In this document: piece by piece, positions 1,379 through 9,870 of the stretch
Position numbering within the stretch: position 1 is the stretch's first letter
How the letters are laid out: the number at the start of each line of letters is the position of its first letter
Source of the DNA: a bacterium 42_11
GTDB lineage: Bacteria; Synergistota; GBS-1
Assembly (NCBI GenBank): GCA_001508835.1
Contig: LGFB01000013.1
Location: 1 to 12,687 of the forward strand
Length of the DNA: 12,687 nucleotides
Reading direction: 5' to 3'
Position numbers and translations under genes: made by a program
The notes under the pieces: model-generated
Told to the model about the DNA's origin: nothing
The model's input: only the letters and a program-made list of their open reading frames with translations
Database searches by the model: none

Positions 1379-2425
1379 TTGTTAAGATGTAAATCTTGTG
1401 GGAAAGAGTACATGAGCTTTAGGGTTTTATGTGAGTGCGGAGGGCTTGTCGATTACATTGAAGAAAGGCCGAAGCTGTTTGACAGCTGCCTTGACAAGCG
1501 ATTTTTAGATGTAAGAAGATATCTTCCCCTTCTTCCGATAAAAGAAAGCTTTCGTCCGAGCGTTACTTTACCCATAACTCCCGTCGTTGAAAGGGATATT
1601 GCCGATACGAAAGTCTTCTTTAAACTCGATTATTTGATGCCCAGCGGTTCGTTTAAAGATAGGGGAACCTATGTAACCGTTGCGAAGCTGAAGGAAGAGG
1701 GTATCAGGGAGGTTACATTGGACTCTTCCGGCAACTCTGCTTTAAGCCTTGCTCTCTTTGCGAAGAGCGAGGGCTTGAAAGCCCACCTTTTCATTCCTGG
1801 CTATACGAGTAAGGGGAAAAAGCGGCTTCTTAGGCTTTTAGATGCCGAGGTTCATGAAATCGAAGGTTCTAGAATGGATGTTCATAAAAAGGCAAAAAGC
1901 TTTGAAGGGGGATTTTACGTTTCTCACTGGTTTAATCCCTATTTTCTTGAGGGAACTAAGGTGGTTTCTTATGAGGTTTATGAGCAGATAGGAGCCGTTG
2001 ATTACGTGTTAAGTCCCGTTGGAAGCGGGAGCCTGTTTATAGGCCTTTATAAAGGATTTAAAGAGCTCAAAAGCTCGGGAAAGCTTGAGCTACCTGTTAT
2101 GATAGCGGTTCAGGCCAAGGGCTTTGAAAGCTTGACGGAGAGAAGTCAGGAAAAGACCACCCTTGCCGAGGGCATAGCTATCCCTGAACCCCCCAGAAAA
2201 GGAGAGATGAAAGATATTATCAACGAAACTAATGGAAGGGTGGTTTCTGTTGGAGATGATGAAATAAGTCAAGCCCTTTCTGAGCTTATTTCTTTTGGTT
2301 TTCTTGTCGAACCTACTTCAGCTGCAACCTATGCAGGTTTTAAGGTTTTGCTTAGCGAAGGATATTTCGAGAAAAAGGCGAAGATTTTAATTCCCCTTAC
2401 CGGTTCTGGCTTAAAAAACGTGTAG
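1379..2425 (+). CDS. thrC: Threonine synthase (PLP-dependent, short ThrC type)
   Basis: This enzyme converts O-phospho-L-homoserine and water to L-threonine and phosphate, the last step of threonine synthesis. It is a cytoplasmic fold-type II PLP enzyme of 348 aa from TTG 1379 (350 aa if ATG 1373 is used). An N-terminal zinc-ribbon-like segment has cysteines at 4, 7, 18 and 20 (CKSCG, then LCECGG), as in many threonine synthases. The PLP lysine is K93 in PSGSFKDRG. SSGNSALSLA (about 117-126) is the substrate/cofactor asparagine loop, and PVGSGS (about 213-218) is the phosphate-binding glycine loop. EPTSAATYAG and PLTGSGLK near the C-terminus are typical of threonine synthase. The zinc ribbon and SFKDRG argue against cysteine synthase or threonine dehydratase. 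No homoserine kinase gene is visible nearby. The stop is only 2 bases from the stop of the convergent chemoreceptor gene. Confidence 0.9.
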   Translation: MLRCKSCGKEYMSFRVLCECGGLVDYIEERPKLFDSCLDKRFLDVRRYLPLLPIKESFRPSVTLPITPVVERDIADTKVFFKLDYLMPSGSFKDRGTYVTVAKLKEEGIREVTLDSSGNSALSLALFAKSEGLKAHLFIPGYTSKGKKRLLRLLDAEVHEIEGSRMDVHKKAKSFEGGFYVSHWFNPYFLEGTKVVSYEVYEQIGAVDYVLSPVGSGSLFIGLYKGFKELKSSGKLELPVMIAVQAKGFESLTERSQEKTTLAEGIAIPEPPRKGEMKDIINETNGRVVSVGDDEISQALSELISFGFLVEPTSAATYAGFKVLLSEGYFEKKAKILIPLTGSGLKNV

Positions 2426-2427
2426 TC

Positions 2428-3270
2428 TTAAATAGATAAATCCTTGAGCCTCATTTGAGCTTTTACAACCGAAGAGATAACCCTTGACAAAGTTTCAAAC
2501 TTTTCTACCGTTTTTTCCAAGACCTGAAGAGCCTTATCAAAGTTTTCTCTTTCTTCTAATAGATTTTCCCTCGTTCCCGAAAGGAGCTCAGCTATGCGAT
2601 AAAGGAGTTCGTAGTTTCCCTGCATGAAGTTCATAAGCTGTTGAAGAGAGCTTTGAACGCTGTTAAAGATTTCTCCCACAAGCTTGGTGCTTTCCAGCGC
2701 TTCCGTGACTGCTCCCGAAAGCTCGCTGACCTGGTCTGTTATGTTTTTGGCTACCCTGTTTGATTCCCCTGCGAGCTTTTGGACTTCCGATGCTACTACG
2801 GCAAAGCCTTTACCGTATTCGCCCGCTCTTGCAGCTTCTATCGAGGCGTTTAAAGCTAAAAGATTGGTTTGCTTTGCAATCTTCGTTATCTCGACAGCCA
2901 TATTTTGTATTTCGCTAAACATCGATAGGGTTTGAGAAGTCTTGTTTATGGAGGACATAACCACTTCGCTTATCTTGGATATATCGGCTCCGGACTTTTT
3001 TAATTCCTCTATAATTTGCTTGTTCACTTCCTTAGAGTCTTCTATGCTTTTTACGAGGTTTTTACTTTCCTCTTCAAATTTTCCTGATAATTCTTCTATC
3101 TTTTTGCGAGTATAATCGAATGTTTTTTCAAGCTCCCTCAAATTCCCTTGGGCTTTCCTGACCCTTGATAGTAAAGCTTCATCGAGCTGAGACATAAATG
3201 AGGTCATAAGATTTTCCGCAAAAAACGATGAAAACACCTTTTCGCTACTTTTCCCCTTTAACTTGACCAT
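2428..3270 (-). CDS. Soluble methyl-accepting chemotaxis protein signalling domain (ODP partner)
   Basis: This is a cytoplasmic chemoreceptor of 280 aa made almost entirely of heptad-rich helices. It has no membrane segment, HAMP domain or recognisable sensor domain. The CheA/CheW-binding hairpin tip is intact at about residues 131-167 ([20 protein letters not shown], then [17 protein letters not shown]). Long coiled-coil arms lie on either side, and the C-terminus (MRLKDLSI) has no CheR-tethering pentapeptide. An in-frame ATG at 3294 exists. The start used here, ATG 3270, has GGAAGGTGAT immediately upstream (3283-3274), and that ribosome site contains the TGA stop of the upstream gene. The gene lies 4 bases downstream of the di-iron protein gene and is certainly its operon partner. 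The family precedent is sensor-less receptors that take their input from ODP. Input through the partner protein, rather than an N-terminal domain, is inferred. Confidence 0.92.
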
Positions 3271-3273
3271 GTT

Positions 3274-3283
3274 ATCACCTTCC
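3274..3283 (-). promoter_or_regulatory. Ribosome site overlapping the ODP stop codon
   Basis: Read on the minus strand, GGAAGGTGAT ends 3 bases before ATG 3270. Its TGA (3277-3275) is the stop codon of the ODP gene, so a terminating ribosome sits on the next gene's initiation site. This implies translational coupling of sensor and receptor, and it decides the receptor start. Confidence 0.75.
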
Positions 3284-4054
3284 ATATATTTCATCTATTA
3301 TATCTGCTCCACACCTTAGCGTTCTAAGCCAGTTGAAAAATTTCTTCACGTTTTCCCCTTTAAATATGGCTCCGTGTTGTGGCGCTACAATGTTTATTTC
3401 TTTTTTCTCAACTATGTCAAGCCATTTTTTGAGTATACTGCTTGAAGCTAAATACCTTTTGTGAAAACCCTCCATCAGTTTAACATGGCTATCGAAGTCT
3501 TCAACGAAGAGATATCTTTTTCCTCTCTCAAAGATGGCGGCGCCTATATCTCCTGAAAATAAGATTTTTGCCTTGGGATCGTATAAGGTGAAGTTTCCAG
3601 TGGAATGAAGAAAGTGGGATGGGATTATCTCAAGTTCCGTTCCCGAAGATAGCTTAATTTTGTCTCCTCTGTCTGGGATAGGGTTTACCCTGCTTTTGTC
3701 GTAAATGCCGAAGTGCGGAAGAAATCTTATCCACAGATTTGAGATGTGGATTCTTGCATTTTCCGCTATAGATAGCCACAGCATTATTCCTGAGGAAACA
3801 TCTGGGTCTTGGTGAGTAAAGAAAATATGTCTGATCTTACTTGGTTCTATTATTTCGGAGACGTTTGCTAATACTCTTGGAAATACATGGACGCCACCTG
3901 GGTCAAGCAGTATGGCCTCGTTACCGTCGATTATCATATATTGGTTGGTCTGAACTATCCCTTCCTCCTCCTTTTCTTCCCATGCAAGGAATAAAAACTT
4001 ATGATTGGGGTCCTCATACAGACTTACGTTTTCAGTTGCTTTTACATCTTGCAC
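3275..4054 (-). CDS. Oxygen-binding di-iron protein (ODP), flavodiiron-like metallo-beta-lactamase fold
   Basis: Predicted cytoplasmic di-iron sensor of oxygen and iron that signals to the neighbouring chemoreceptor. It is 259 aa from GTG 4054 (269 from ATG 4084). GTG is preferred because GGAGGTGG (4067-4060) lies ideally before it, and that site would be coding if ATG were used. Residue numbers below count from ATG 4084; subtract 10 for the GTG start. Metal-site motifs in order are THQDPDV (H91, D93, D95), FLHSTGNF (H160), FSGDIG (D179) and APQHG (H237). The segment after SGDIG (VEDFDSH, then [10 protein letters not shown]) matches the ODP/flavodiiron family rather than hydrolytic lactamases. 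There is no flavodoxin or rubredoxin domain, so it is not a full oxygen or NO reductase. Compared with the flavodiiron pattern HxExDH, Asp replaces Glu and Val follows the second Asp. Alternative: an enzyme acting on NO or O2 with a separate electron donor. Confidence 0.85.
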
Positions 4055-4059
4055 ATTGG

Positions 4060-4067
4060 CCACCTCC
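4060..4067 (-). promoter_or_regulatory. Ribosome site placing the ODP start at GTG 4054
   Basis: GGAGGTGG on the minus strand has its GGAGG core 8 bases before GTG 4054. The upstream in-frame ATG at 4084 has only a weak AAGG two bases away. Confidence 0.7.
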
Positions 4068-4103
4068 ATATCTGAAAGCCTCATAACCTTGGTCTTTTTT
4101 TTA

Positions 4104-4134
4104 ATTATATCATTTACTCTTGAGCATTTGGCAA
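4104..4134 (-). promoter_or_regulatory. Promoter for the ODP-chemoreceptor operon
   Basis: On the minus strand a perfect TATAAT lies at 4109-4104 and TTGCCA (4 of 6) at 4134-4129. The 19-base spacer is longer than ideal. The predicted transcript start is near 4097, giving a leader of about 43 bases before GTG 4054. The -35 overlaps that of the opposite promoter. Confidence 0.55.
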
Positions 4135-4156
4135 AGTTATGGTAAAAGCTTATAAG
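4128..4156 (+). promoter_or_regulatory. Promoter for the MFS transporter-DUF1015 genes
   Basis: TTGGCA at 4128-4133 (5 of 6), a 17-base spacer, and TATAAG at 4151-4156 (5 of 6) make one of the best sigma-70-type promoters in the window. An imperfect dyad, AGCTT-5-AAGCT (4147-4161), overlaps the -10 and could be an operator; that role is inferred. Confidence 0.6.
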
Positions 4157-4190
4157 AAGCTAACTTCGTGGAGAAAGGGGAGTTTCTTGA

Positions 4191-5375
4191 GTGGGAAGGG
4201 AATGGGTTATATTGCTTTCGAGCGTTTTAATGATGTTTTGCATAGGTGGAGTTTATGCTTGGAGCGCCTTCGCTTATGAGCTGATTAAAGGTGGTTATAT
4301 TTCAGTGACGCAATCTCAGATAATCTTCGGTTCTATAAGCGGAGGTATCCCAATTTATATGATATTTGCGGGTAGAATCGAAAAGAGGCTAATTAGCTTG
4401 AGGAAATTTGTCTTCGTCGTGGGCTCGTTGTTCGGGGGTAGCTATATTCTTGCCGGTTTGTTTAGGGGAAACTTCTGGGGAATCTGGTTTTCCTTGGGGG
4501 TTTTGAGCGCCTTAGGAATAGGCTTGCTTTACGCGTTAGGGATAGGCATACCTATGAGATGGTTTCCTCCTCAGAAGAAGGGATTAATTACGGGCATAAG
4601 CGTGGGTAGTTTTGGTTTAGGTTCAGTGGTATTGCCCTTTATTATAACCTACTTGAAGGGATTAGGTTATTCGGTCCACCAGATATTTATGACGGTAGGT
4701 GTTATATATATACTGCTTATCTCCATAAGCTCCCTCTTTTTTGACAAGCCTGGTGACCCAGAAGGGCAGTCTGATCAAGGTTTAAGTCTTGGAAAGGGGA
4801 AGATTCTTTCTGGATGGCGTTTTTGGAAGCTCTGGCTTGGCATTTTCTGCGGCGTTTTTGGTGGTGTAATGGTGATAGGTAACTTGAAGAACATGGGCTT
4901 GACTTTGATAGATAATGAAATGCTTGTTACAGCAAGCATTTCATTATTTGCCGTGTCAAATTGCTTAGGTAGAATTTTGTGGGGCTGGATAGGAGACAGG
5001 CTCGGTTCTCCCCGTGCCATAGTTCTTGGTTTGCTTTGTGGAGCCTTAGGTTTGTTAGGGTTGTATATTTTTTCCATTAATGCTATCTTATATACATCGT
5101 TGGTGCTCTTGCTTGGGTTCAGCTATGGTGCTAACTTTGTCCTTTTCGCAAGAGAGACAGCGGAGGAGTACGGGATTAATAACGTAACTACGGTTTATCC
5201 CTACGTTTTTCTCGGTAATGCGGTGGCGGCTGTTTGTGGTCCGATTGTTGGAGGGCTTTTATATGATATGTATGGCGATTATTATACCGCGGTTTTGGTT
5301 GCCATTTTTGTGTCCTTTTTGGGGATCTCCATTTTTATAAAGGATATTTTTAAGCCTATCAAAGTGGAGGGATGA
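4191..5375 (+). CDS. MFS transporter of the oxalate/formate antiporter (OFA) type
   Basis: This is an inner-membrane carrier of 394 aa with a hydrophobic pattern fitting 12 helices. The GTG start follows GGGGAG (4177-4182) by 8 bases. The first helix carries GGVYAWSAF (19-27), the hallmark of the OFA family. RWFPPQKKGLITGISVGS (123-140) is the family's cytoplasmic segment after helix 4. GRILWGWIGDRLG (260-272) is the helix 8-9 loop motif. A hydrophilic middle loop (about 185-210) separates the two halves. The predicted helix 11 region (about 335-358) has no lysine, whereas the oxalate transporter OxlT uses a lysine there, so oxalate is not a safe substrate call. Small mono- or dicarboxylates are more general possibilities for this family. 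The stop lies 4 bases before the start of the DUF1015 gene, whose ribosome site is within this coding region. Confidence 0.88.
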   Translation: MGREWVILLSSVLMMFCIGGVYAWSAFAYELIKGGYISVTQSQIIFGSISGGIPIYMIFAGRIEKRLISLRKFVFVVGSLFGGSYILAGLFRGNFWGIWFSLGVLSALGIGLLYALGIGIPMRWFPPQKKGLITGISVGSFGLGSVVLPFIITYLKGLGYSVHQIFMTVGVIYILLISISSLFFDKPGDPEGQSDQGLSLGKGKILSGWRFWKLWLGIFCGVFGGVMVIGNLKNMGLTLIDNEMLVTASISLFAVSNCLGRILWGWIGDRLGSPRAIVLGLLCGALGLLGLYIFSINAILYTSLVLLLGFSYGANFVLFARETAEEYGINNVTTVYPYVFLGNAVAAVCGPIVGGLLYDMYGDYYTAVLVAIFVSFLGISIFIKDIFKPIKVEG

Positions 5376-8937: not shown

Positions 8938-8966
8938 TTGCTTTGCTATTCGATTGGGTTTATAAT
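8938..8966 (+). promoter_or_regulatory. Distal promoter candidate of the arginase-fold gene
   Basis: TTGCTT (8938-8943), a 17-base spacer and a perfect TATAAT (8961-8966). Transcription would begin near 8973 and give an untranslated leader of about 170 bases ending at ATG 9145. Confidence 0.5.
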
Positions 8967-9064
8967 CTTTAAAAGTCCTTTCGAAAGAGCAATTACAGTT
9001 TATCACAAGGGTACGAAGATTTGGATGGGTGTTTCCCTCAAGTCAATTGTAGCTGGAGCTTTCT

Positions 9065-9079
9065 TCCCTTCCAAAGGGA
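9065..9079 (+). repeat. Short hairpin in the leader
   Basis: TCCCTT (9065-9070), loop CCA, AAGGGA (9074-9079): a perfect 6-base stem. Part of its left arm (CCCTT, 9066-9070) could pair instead with AAGGG at 9106-9110, which overlaps the left arm of the inverted repeat at 9100-9134. Confidence 0.45.
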
Positions 9080-9092
9080 CATTAAAACAGGT

Positions 9093-9122
9093 TTTTTGGC
9101 CTCTAAAGGGATTAGCTATAAT
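9093..9122 (+). promoter_or_regulatory. Proximal promoter candidate inside the leader
   Basis: A perfect TATAAT at 9117-9122. The -35 is poor: TTTTTG at 9093-9098 with an 18-base spacer, or TTGGCC at 9096-9101 with only 15. A transcript would begin near 9129, just before the ribosome site. Confidence 0.35.
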
Positions 9123-9134
9123 TATTTTTAGAGG
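9100..9134 (+). repeat. Inverted repeat that would mask the ribosome site
   Basis: CCTCTAAA (9100-9107) is a perfect complement of TTTAGAGG (9127-9134), with a 19-base loop. The right arm contains the GAGG of the ribosome site for ATG 9145, so in a long transcript the hairpin would hide that site. The pairing is seen in the sequence; regulation is inferred. Confidence 0.5.
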
Positions 9135-9144
9135 TGAGGATGTT

Positions 9145-9870
9145 ATGATGCAAGGCTCGTTTTCCATCCTCATCCTCGATTTTGATGGGGTATATAAGTT
9201 ACAGAAGGATTTATCCTCATTGGGGGAGATCCTGGACTTCGAGGGGTCTGAGGGAATCAGGTTTATGACTTCTTTCGCCAAGCTTGACGAATTAGATAAA
9301 CTGATTCCACATAGAGATAAAACTATCGCTTTTATCGGCGGAGGGAAGTATCATCATCTATCTTTGGTCTTCTTAAGAAGGATTAAAGTGCCATTTGTAT
9401 TGCTTCTTTTTGATAAGCATTTTGACGGACTTAAGAAGGGGAGCGATTTTGTAAGGTGCGATTCTTGGTTAAACTTCGCATTTGGTCTCAGGAATTTGCT
9501 TAAGGTTGGTTTCATATACATGATCGGGGGAGGAAGAGGGAAGTTGCATCTTCTCACTCCCGATCCGTCAGGGTTGCTTAAGTTTCTGGAAGATAAATGG
9601 GTTTATATAAGCATAGATAAGGATATCCTTGACGTTTCCATTGCTCGTTGGGGTAAAGGATGGCTATCCTTAGATATCCTTTTAAGATTGGTTAGGGCGA
9701 TCCCGAGGGAGAAGATCATAGGGGTTGATGTATGCGGAGAACCTGATGGATTTGAGTTTTGGAAGATACCTCAGAGTGAAGCTGTAAACTTAGCCATCTT
9801 AAACTCTCTCGGGATGGAAATTCCCACCCGCTTCCATAGAGATCTATATGGATGGAGTTTTAACGCTTAG
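9145..9870 (+). CDS. Compact arginase/agmatinase-fold (ureohydrolase superfamily) protein
   Basis: 241 aa from ATG 9145; ATG 9148 follows directly, and GAGGTGAGG at 9131-9139 supports either. The superfamily cleaves guanidino or formimino groups from arginine, agmatine or formiminoglutamate with two Mn ions. Metal motifs are present in the right order: GGGKYHH (65-71, replacing GGDHS), DKHFD (90-94, replacing DAHxD) and SIDKDILD (156-163, replacing SIDIDxxDP). GWLSLDILLRLVRAI and IIGVDVCGEPDG match the later helix and the last strand. It is about 50 or more residues shorter than typical arginases, mainly at the N-terminus, and the usual substrate-specificity segments are not recognisable. Activity is plausible because the predicted ligands are conserved, but the substrate is unknown. 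It stands alone between convergent and divergent genes, with a long leader. Confidence 0.78.
   Translation: MMQGSFSILILDFDGVYKLQKDLSSLGEILDFEGSEGIRFMTSFAKLDELDKLIPHRDKTIAFIGGGKYHHLSLVFLRRIKVPFVLLLFDKHFDGLKKGSDFVRCDSWLNFAFGLRNLLKVGFIYMIGGGRGKLHLLTPDPSGLLKFLEDKWVYISIDKDILDVSIARWGKGWLSLDILLRLVRAIPREKIIGVDVCGEPDGFEFWKIPQSEAVNLAILNSLGMEIPTRFHRDLYGWSFNA

Follow-up and report, generated by a model that had tools for sequence, protein, structure and literature searches.

The window, by which we mean the whole 12,687-nucleotide stretch of DNA that was analysed, carries two consecutive genes on its minus strand, the first encoding an oxygen-binding di-iron protein (ODP) and the second a soluble chemoreceptor (Table 1). 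In the open reading frame listing the ODP gene is the minus-strand frame 4084..3275, specifying 269 amino acids; its likely start is the GTG at 4054, which has the motif GGAGGTG just 5' of it, but as ATG codons also lie in frame at 4069 and 4084 this start is favoured rather than proven. The predicted protein covers the whole of the PF19583 ODP model (model positions 1-194) with 261.4 bits, against a cut-off of 27.2, and its nearest relatives of solved structure are 6qrq (E 1.7e-126) and 6qnm (E 3.2e-94), both named oxygen-binding di-iron protein, which we take to be the ODPs of Thermotoga maritima and Treponema denticola, respectively. The assignment of the product to the ODP type in the first-pass annotation is thus borne out. 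ODPs head the list of PDB matches, so the closest relatives are not hydrolases, and a type 2 metallo-beta-lactamase appears only at 5.1e-4.

The window ODP shares its fold and the positions of the di-iron ligands with the flavodiiron proteins, but unlike them has no flavodoxin domain. The other full-length relative in the genome (on contig C219) is a flavodiiron paralogue with a flavodoxin domain and the motifs HHMEPDH and PGHG; relative to it, the ODP replaces Glu by Asp and His by Val in motif 2, and carries Gln in place of the Gly that precedes the last His. As this paralogue also passes the PF19583 cut-off, with 80.5 bits, it is the ligand set and not the Pfam name that separates an ODP from a flavodiiron protein. 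Eight residues (H91, D93, D95, V96, H160, D179, Q236 and H237) are identical in all 79 ODPs compared, which comprise the window and 78 further loci and include 73 distinct sequences. Excerpts from a study that terms the T. maritima ODP a 'diiron oxygen sensor' (PMC7785958) describe a sensor-type ligand set in which the third His of motif 2 is lost and a Gln stands at motif 5; this set is present in the window protein as V96 and Q236.

In the receptor PF00015 (MCPsignal) is recognised with 94.8 bits against a cut-off of 34.6, and no second Pfam family is found at E 0.001. Its PDB relatives are the methyl-accepting chemotaxis protein fragments 3g67 (1e-37) and 3g6b (1.6e-36), presumably the soluble receptor Tm14 of T. 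maritima. The highest 19-residue hydropathy mean is 0.66, so that a membrane segment is not expected, and AlphaFold models the receptor alone as helical over residues 3-277 (mean pLDDT 87.2, pTM 0.49). The protein therefore has what defines a soluble chemoreceptor, an MCP signalling domain with neither membrane segment nor input domain, as it had been read initially. No NCBIfam model scored above its cut-off for either of the two proteins.

The junction of the two genes on the minus strand reads ATGGAAGGTGATAACATG. The ODP stop codon TGA (3277-3275) is followed by four bases (3274-3271) and then by the receptor ATG (3270), which agrees with the earlier description of a 4-base gap with the stop codon inside the receptor's ribosome site. 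A longer receptor frame of 288 aa (3294..2428, minus strand) opens upstream, and a start at 3294, overlapping the ODP gene, is possible. In L038 and L039, two relatives, the opening of the receptor frame follows the ODP stop by just 3 bases, and under a start-picking rule that chose late starts for some receptors 65 of 78 receptors, the window's among them, begin 1 to 30 bases past the ODP stop; such short spacing is consistent with coupled translation in general. A promoter and terminator scan of 2380-4300 returned three promoter-like and one terminator-like signals, all on the plus strand, against 3.8 and 1.9 in shuffled sequences.

Table 1. Features of the ODP and receptor genes, with positions in the window
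Feature	Position	Strand	Basis
ODP (oxygen-binding di-iron protein) gene	3275..4084	minus	PF19583, 261.4 bits; PDB 6qrq, E 1.7e-126
Metal motif 2, HQDPDV; ligands H91, D93, D95 by homology	3797..3814	minus	79/79 sequences
V96 in motif 2, at the site of the third His of flavodiiron enzymes	within 3797..3814	minus	79/79
Metal ligand H160 by homology	3605..3607	minus	79/79
Metal ligand D179 by homology to flavodiiron proteins	3548..3550	minus	79/79
Q236-H237, sensor-type Gln beside the last His ligand (PQHG)	3374..3379	minus	79/79
ODP stop and 4-base gap in the receptor's ribosome-site-like stretch (GGAAGGTGATAAC-ATG)	3271..3277	minus	sequence
Soluble receptor gene, 280 aa, MCP signalling hairpin only	2428..3270	minus	PF00015; 3g67, E 1e-37; AlphaFold
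N-terminal partner signature, residues 13-37, proposed ODP dock	3160..3234	minus	entropy; own-genome profile
Kinase-contact tip, residues 125-165, role by homology	2776..2898	minus	mean entropy 0.73 bits, 66 sequences
C-terminal partner signature, residues 258-280, proposed ODP dock	2431..2499	minus	entropy; own-genome profile

Conservation of the pairing and the resident chemotaxis machinery

Within the window's phylum 40 of 185 genomes contain ODP-like matches (E 1e-30 or better), as do 58 of 103 in the phylum of G186, the Thermotogaceae genome of locus L020. A soluble receptor frame lies directly downstream on the same strand in 77 of 79 ODP loci (window included), adjacency having been read in 30 of the 40 synergistote hits, 30 of the 61 Thermotogota hits and all 19 loci from a contig collection, sets that overlap. 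Among the 77 paired loci the contig of L030 ends within the receptor, and ODP and receptor share one frame in L091 and L093. The two exceptions are L026, where the ODP lies between an MCP and a cheR-cheD-cheB row, and L034 (2165-2947, plus strand, in a record assigned to Pyrodictium), which has no receptor nearby and an archaeal flagellin gene on its contig; no CheA was found in the genome of the latter. The L034 ODP overlaps a 231-aa frame of unknown nature, and this archaeal record could be mis-binned. Pairwise distances among ODPs and among receptors are correlated (r 0.86 over 70 pairs, with 0 of 2000 permutations as high), a value that co-inheritance alone could yield, because the permutation ignores shared ancestry.

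Two characterised systems are close in kind. The ODP and Tm14 of T. maritima, taken as 6qrq and 3g67/3g6b, are orthologous to the window pair and have the same gene order; in the Thermotogota locus L091 the 6qrq and 3g67 sequences, recognised by eye from the PDB alignments, adjoin, 9 bases apart, and the identity to the window pair is about 69% for the ODP and 41% for the receptor. The window pair is closer to those of the Fervidobacteriaceae-type loci L078-L086 (75-78% for the ODP and 59-67% for the receptor). Tm14 is described, in excerpts from PMC12871147, as a T. maritima receptor without a ligand-binding domain and without canonical methylation sites. In T. denticola, according to excerpts from PMC7666581, the ODP TDE2498 serves chemotaxis as its oxygen sensor; TDE2498 is genetically coupled to TDE2496, a homologue of MCPs that has neither a membrane nor a sensing module and is able to modulate CheA; the same excerpts state that deletion of the ODP alters CheA order in the arrays and that the ODP has no obvious place in the array densities. 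The window thus resembles T. denticola in the coupling of an ODP to an MCP that lacks membrane and sensing parts, but the T. denticola pair belongs to another phylum and to an F2-type CheA system. The earlier statement that such pairs are established as acting on CheA in both organisms therefore stands for T. denticola (PMC7666581); for T. maritima the excerpts cited carry the role of the ODP as an oxygen sensor and not an action of the pair on CheA.

The genome, which is 77.6% complete and in 245 contigs, holds 10 MCPs over the cut-off, one CheA (C245) with Hpt, P2, dimerisation, ATPase and CheW domains, one separate CheW (C181) and three flagellin hits. The CheA cluster also contains a MinD/ParA-like ATPase, two PilZ proteins, CheB, CheC and CheD; CheB is spread over two frames, each matching one part of the methylesterase model. 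The 10 window proteins scanned by Pfam include no chemotaxis protein besides the pair, as had been noted, and the suggested search of the genome for cheA, cheW and flagellar genes has located the kinase on another contig; the absence of CheA from the genome, which the first-pass annotation had named as fatal to its reading, is therefore not what is found. Its view of the protein family, of the pairing and of the need for a remote kinase is supported. Across the phylum CheA is present in 38 of 40 ODP genomes versus 90 of 145 without an ODP match, as raw counts across related genomes; the two ODP genomes in which no CheA hit was obtained are G012 and G036.

Several further loci deserve mention. 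Internal stop codons occur in the ODP matches of G012, G014, G186, G187, G233-G236, G239 and G289, some of which may run past the gene's own end and others of which may be decayed copies. In G002, a member of the same family as the window genome, the ODP-MCP pair (L140, 4857-7394) is divergent from cheR. Locus L067 (G000:C102, 53-919, minus strand) encodes a 288-aa protein in which a Rossmann-like N-terminal part, recognised by eye and without a Pfam match, is joined to an MCP tip; its neighbours encode a BNR-repeat protein and a B12/pterin-binding protein.

The receptor termini as a candidate ODP-binding end

Positional entropy was computed over 66 of 78 receptors, after exclusion of 8 rows no longer than 260 aa and of 4 that were duplicate or cut, and the same set served for sequence profiles. 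Of nine receptor stretches compared across these 66 sequences, the kinase-contact tip is the most conserved. In the 57 receptors of Synergistota/Thermotogota type the mean entropy of the tip is 0.60, and both ends of the protein are conserved relative to the stretches next to them, with 1.09 in residues 13-37 versus 2.39 in residues 38-85 and 1.37 in residues 258-280 versus 2.25 in residues 241-257; the remaining stretches between tip and ends range from 1.77 to 2.39. Profiles of the two ends match the window receptor with 62.1 (N-terminal) and 44.6 bits (C-terminal), and nothing else reaches above 4.3 bits among the frames of at least 100 aa at 28 loci of its own genome, including 10 receptors. 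For the 9 other receptors this comparison covered the protein's own N-terminal end in 8 (all but L003) and its C-terminal end in 7 (all but L009 and L010).

A chemoreceptor hairpin has both of its termini at the end far from CheA. Since the signature is not found in the other testable receptors of the genome, and since the two ends come together far from the kinase tip, the paired N- and C-termini of the receptor are likely to form its ODP-binding end. In nine receptors from other phyla, inspected by eye, the C-terminal pattern is loose and the N-terminal signature largely missing, so that a dock of this form would not be universal.

Histories of the pair and of the resident CheA

The window ODP is 84% identical to that of G001 and 77% to that of G003, both of its own family, and 72-78% to those of Thermotogota in the same clade (L019 being Fervidobacterium); the identity is 67% to G002, of the same family, and 57-66% to other synergistotes. 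In the ODP tree (72 of 80 rows, the 80 being 79 loci plus the window; L017, L022, L030, L036, L064, L078, L093 and L107 were dropped as duplicates or cut) the window, G001 and G003 are grouped with 11 Thermotogota rows (support 99/98), and G002 is placed with other synergistotes on a long branch, at a node that is not starred (91/79). The receptor tree, of 60 rows after removal of the same eight, two loci without a receptor and 10 divergent sequences, recovers the same 14-row set (100/98), again with G002 apart on a long branch. Two groupings were put to an AU test, both chosen with the tree already in view: uniting all synergistote ODPs is rejected (AU p 0.0069), and uniting the four family ODPs only marginally so (AU p 0.0415).

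CheA has another history. The four family members form a clade (100/99) that lies outside the one uniting the 14 sampled Thermotogota (100/100), and the midpoint root, which serves for drawing only, places the family beside the Thermotogota. Identity to the CheA of the window genome is 78% in G002, 48-51% in full-length Thermotogota sequences and 48-52% in other synergistotes. By the CheA tree the family kinase is not derived from Fervidobacteriaceae, yet it does not fall within the other synergistotes and is not shown to be typically synergistote, as these are no closer. A similar conflict between the placements of the pair and of CheA is seen at L087 (G251).

In the window, G001 and G003 the pair is flanked by genes for a methyltransferase, a carboxypeptidase and threonine synthase, and on the other side by a DUF1015 gene; G003 has in addition a nitroreductase-like gene, whereas the window and G001 have one or two MFS genes. 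These flanking genes are absent around the pair in G002 and in the Thermotogota loci L141 and L142. The similar gene order in three family genomes argues against a mis-binned contig, and a search at E 1e-30 gives a single ODP hit in each of them. Taken together, the ODP and receptor trees, the other history of CheA and the flanking genes suggest, as the most likely history, that the two genes were exchanged together between Fervidobacteriaceae-type Thermotogota and this synergistote family, in either direction. Judged by title, none of the papers listed by a literature search concerns such a transfer.

As to the surroundings of the pair, the MFS gene of the window (4191-5375, plus strand, divergent from the ODP gene) encodes a carrier of lactate/oxalate-formate type, below the NCBIfam cut-offs; it is doubled in G001 and has no match near the pair in G003. 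A 310-aa frame without a Pfam match (8938-9870, plus strand) corresponds to a 53% identical stretch about 5 kb from the pair in G003.

Proposed function and alternatives

We consider it highly probable that the window encodes an oxygen/iron-sensing ODP-MCP module of the T. denticola kind, which would have been exchanged as a unit and would work with a resident CheA of other history. By homology, the ODP would bind two irons, with O2 forming a stabilised iron-peroxy adduct; the resulting change would reach the partner receptor, most probably through that end of the hairpin which lies away from the kinase tip and bears the signature termini; the receptor would join arrays of the genome's one CheA and one CheW and alter CheA activity, and thereby flagellar behaviour. 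We infer that the pair could in this way serve oxygen avoidance in an anaerobe, or report iron.

The ODP reportedly acts as a sensor of both Fe[II] and oxygen, binding O2 as an iron-peroxy species (Muok et al. in 2019). That the pair reports iron level and not oxygen, with apo and iron-loaded ODP differing in their control of the receptor and O2 being secondary, seems rather unlikely to us; Fe[II] does stand beside oxygen in the title of that work, and the sequence separates neither signal from the other, the same ligands serving both.

The alternative that there was no transfer, so that the trees would stem from an ancient duplication followed by differential loss, from a long-branch effect or from mis-binning of the contig, is improbable: the family-clade test is marginal and G002 does sit on a long branch, but the flanks are common to the window, G001 and G003 and not to the Thermotogota loci, each of the three genomes has its one ODP hit, and CheA tells of another history. 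It is very improbable that the metallo-beta-lactamase-fold protein is an enzyme which only shares a transcript with the receptor, whether a hydrolase or, like the flavodiiron proteins, an oxygen or NO reductase. The shared fold family (PF00753, 61 bits), weak PDB flavoprotein matches (9.3e-7 at best) and a Pfam ODP model that is not decisive by itself, matching the genome's own flavodiiron protein too, speak for such a reading. Against it stand the missing flavodoxin domain, the invariant V96 and Q236, the separate flavodiiron protein of the genome and the receptor neighbour in nearly all loci.

The preferred reading of an exchanged oxygen/iron-sensing module admits a broader and more tentative proposal, namely that the ODP-MCP pair might be a portable plug-in sense organ that moves between phyla as a unit and couples to any CheA that its new host already has. 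The pair would be able to do so because the receptor combines a general kinase tip with a private ODP dock, formed at the opposite end by its own termini. The pair itself is real and ordinary in kind; what is added here is a probable cross-phylum exchange and a testable docking surface. A structurally solved oxygen/iron chemotaxis module is extended to a deep synergistote lineage, the regularity of the sensor-receptor pairing is displayed, and a concrete docking surface is proposed on a receptor that itself has no input domain. If the exchange was natural and cross-phylum, receptor modules would be swappable onto a foreign kinase.

The ODP sensor domain is also wired in other ways. A 684-aa frame at L143 (G245:C17, 562-2616, minus strand) combines an ODP domain (219.9 bits) with GGDEF and response-regulator domains, and by these domain matches the protein is an ODP joined to a c-di-GMP-type enzyme. 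Tandem ODP-ODP-MCP gene rows were met in two genomes of the Thermotogota search, at L144 (825-3230, minus strand), where Pfam was also run, and at L145 (2164-4613, plus strand).
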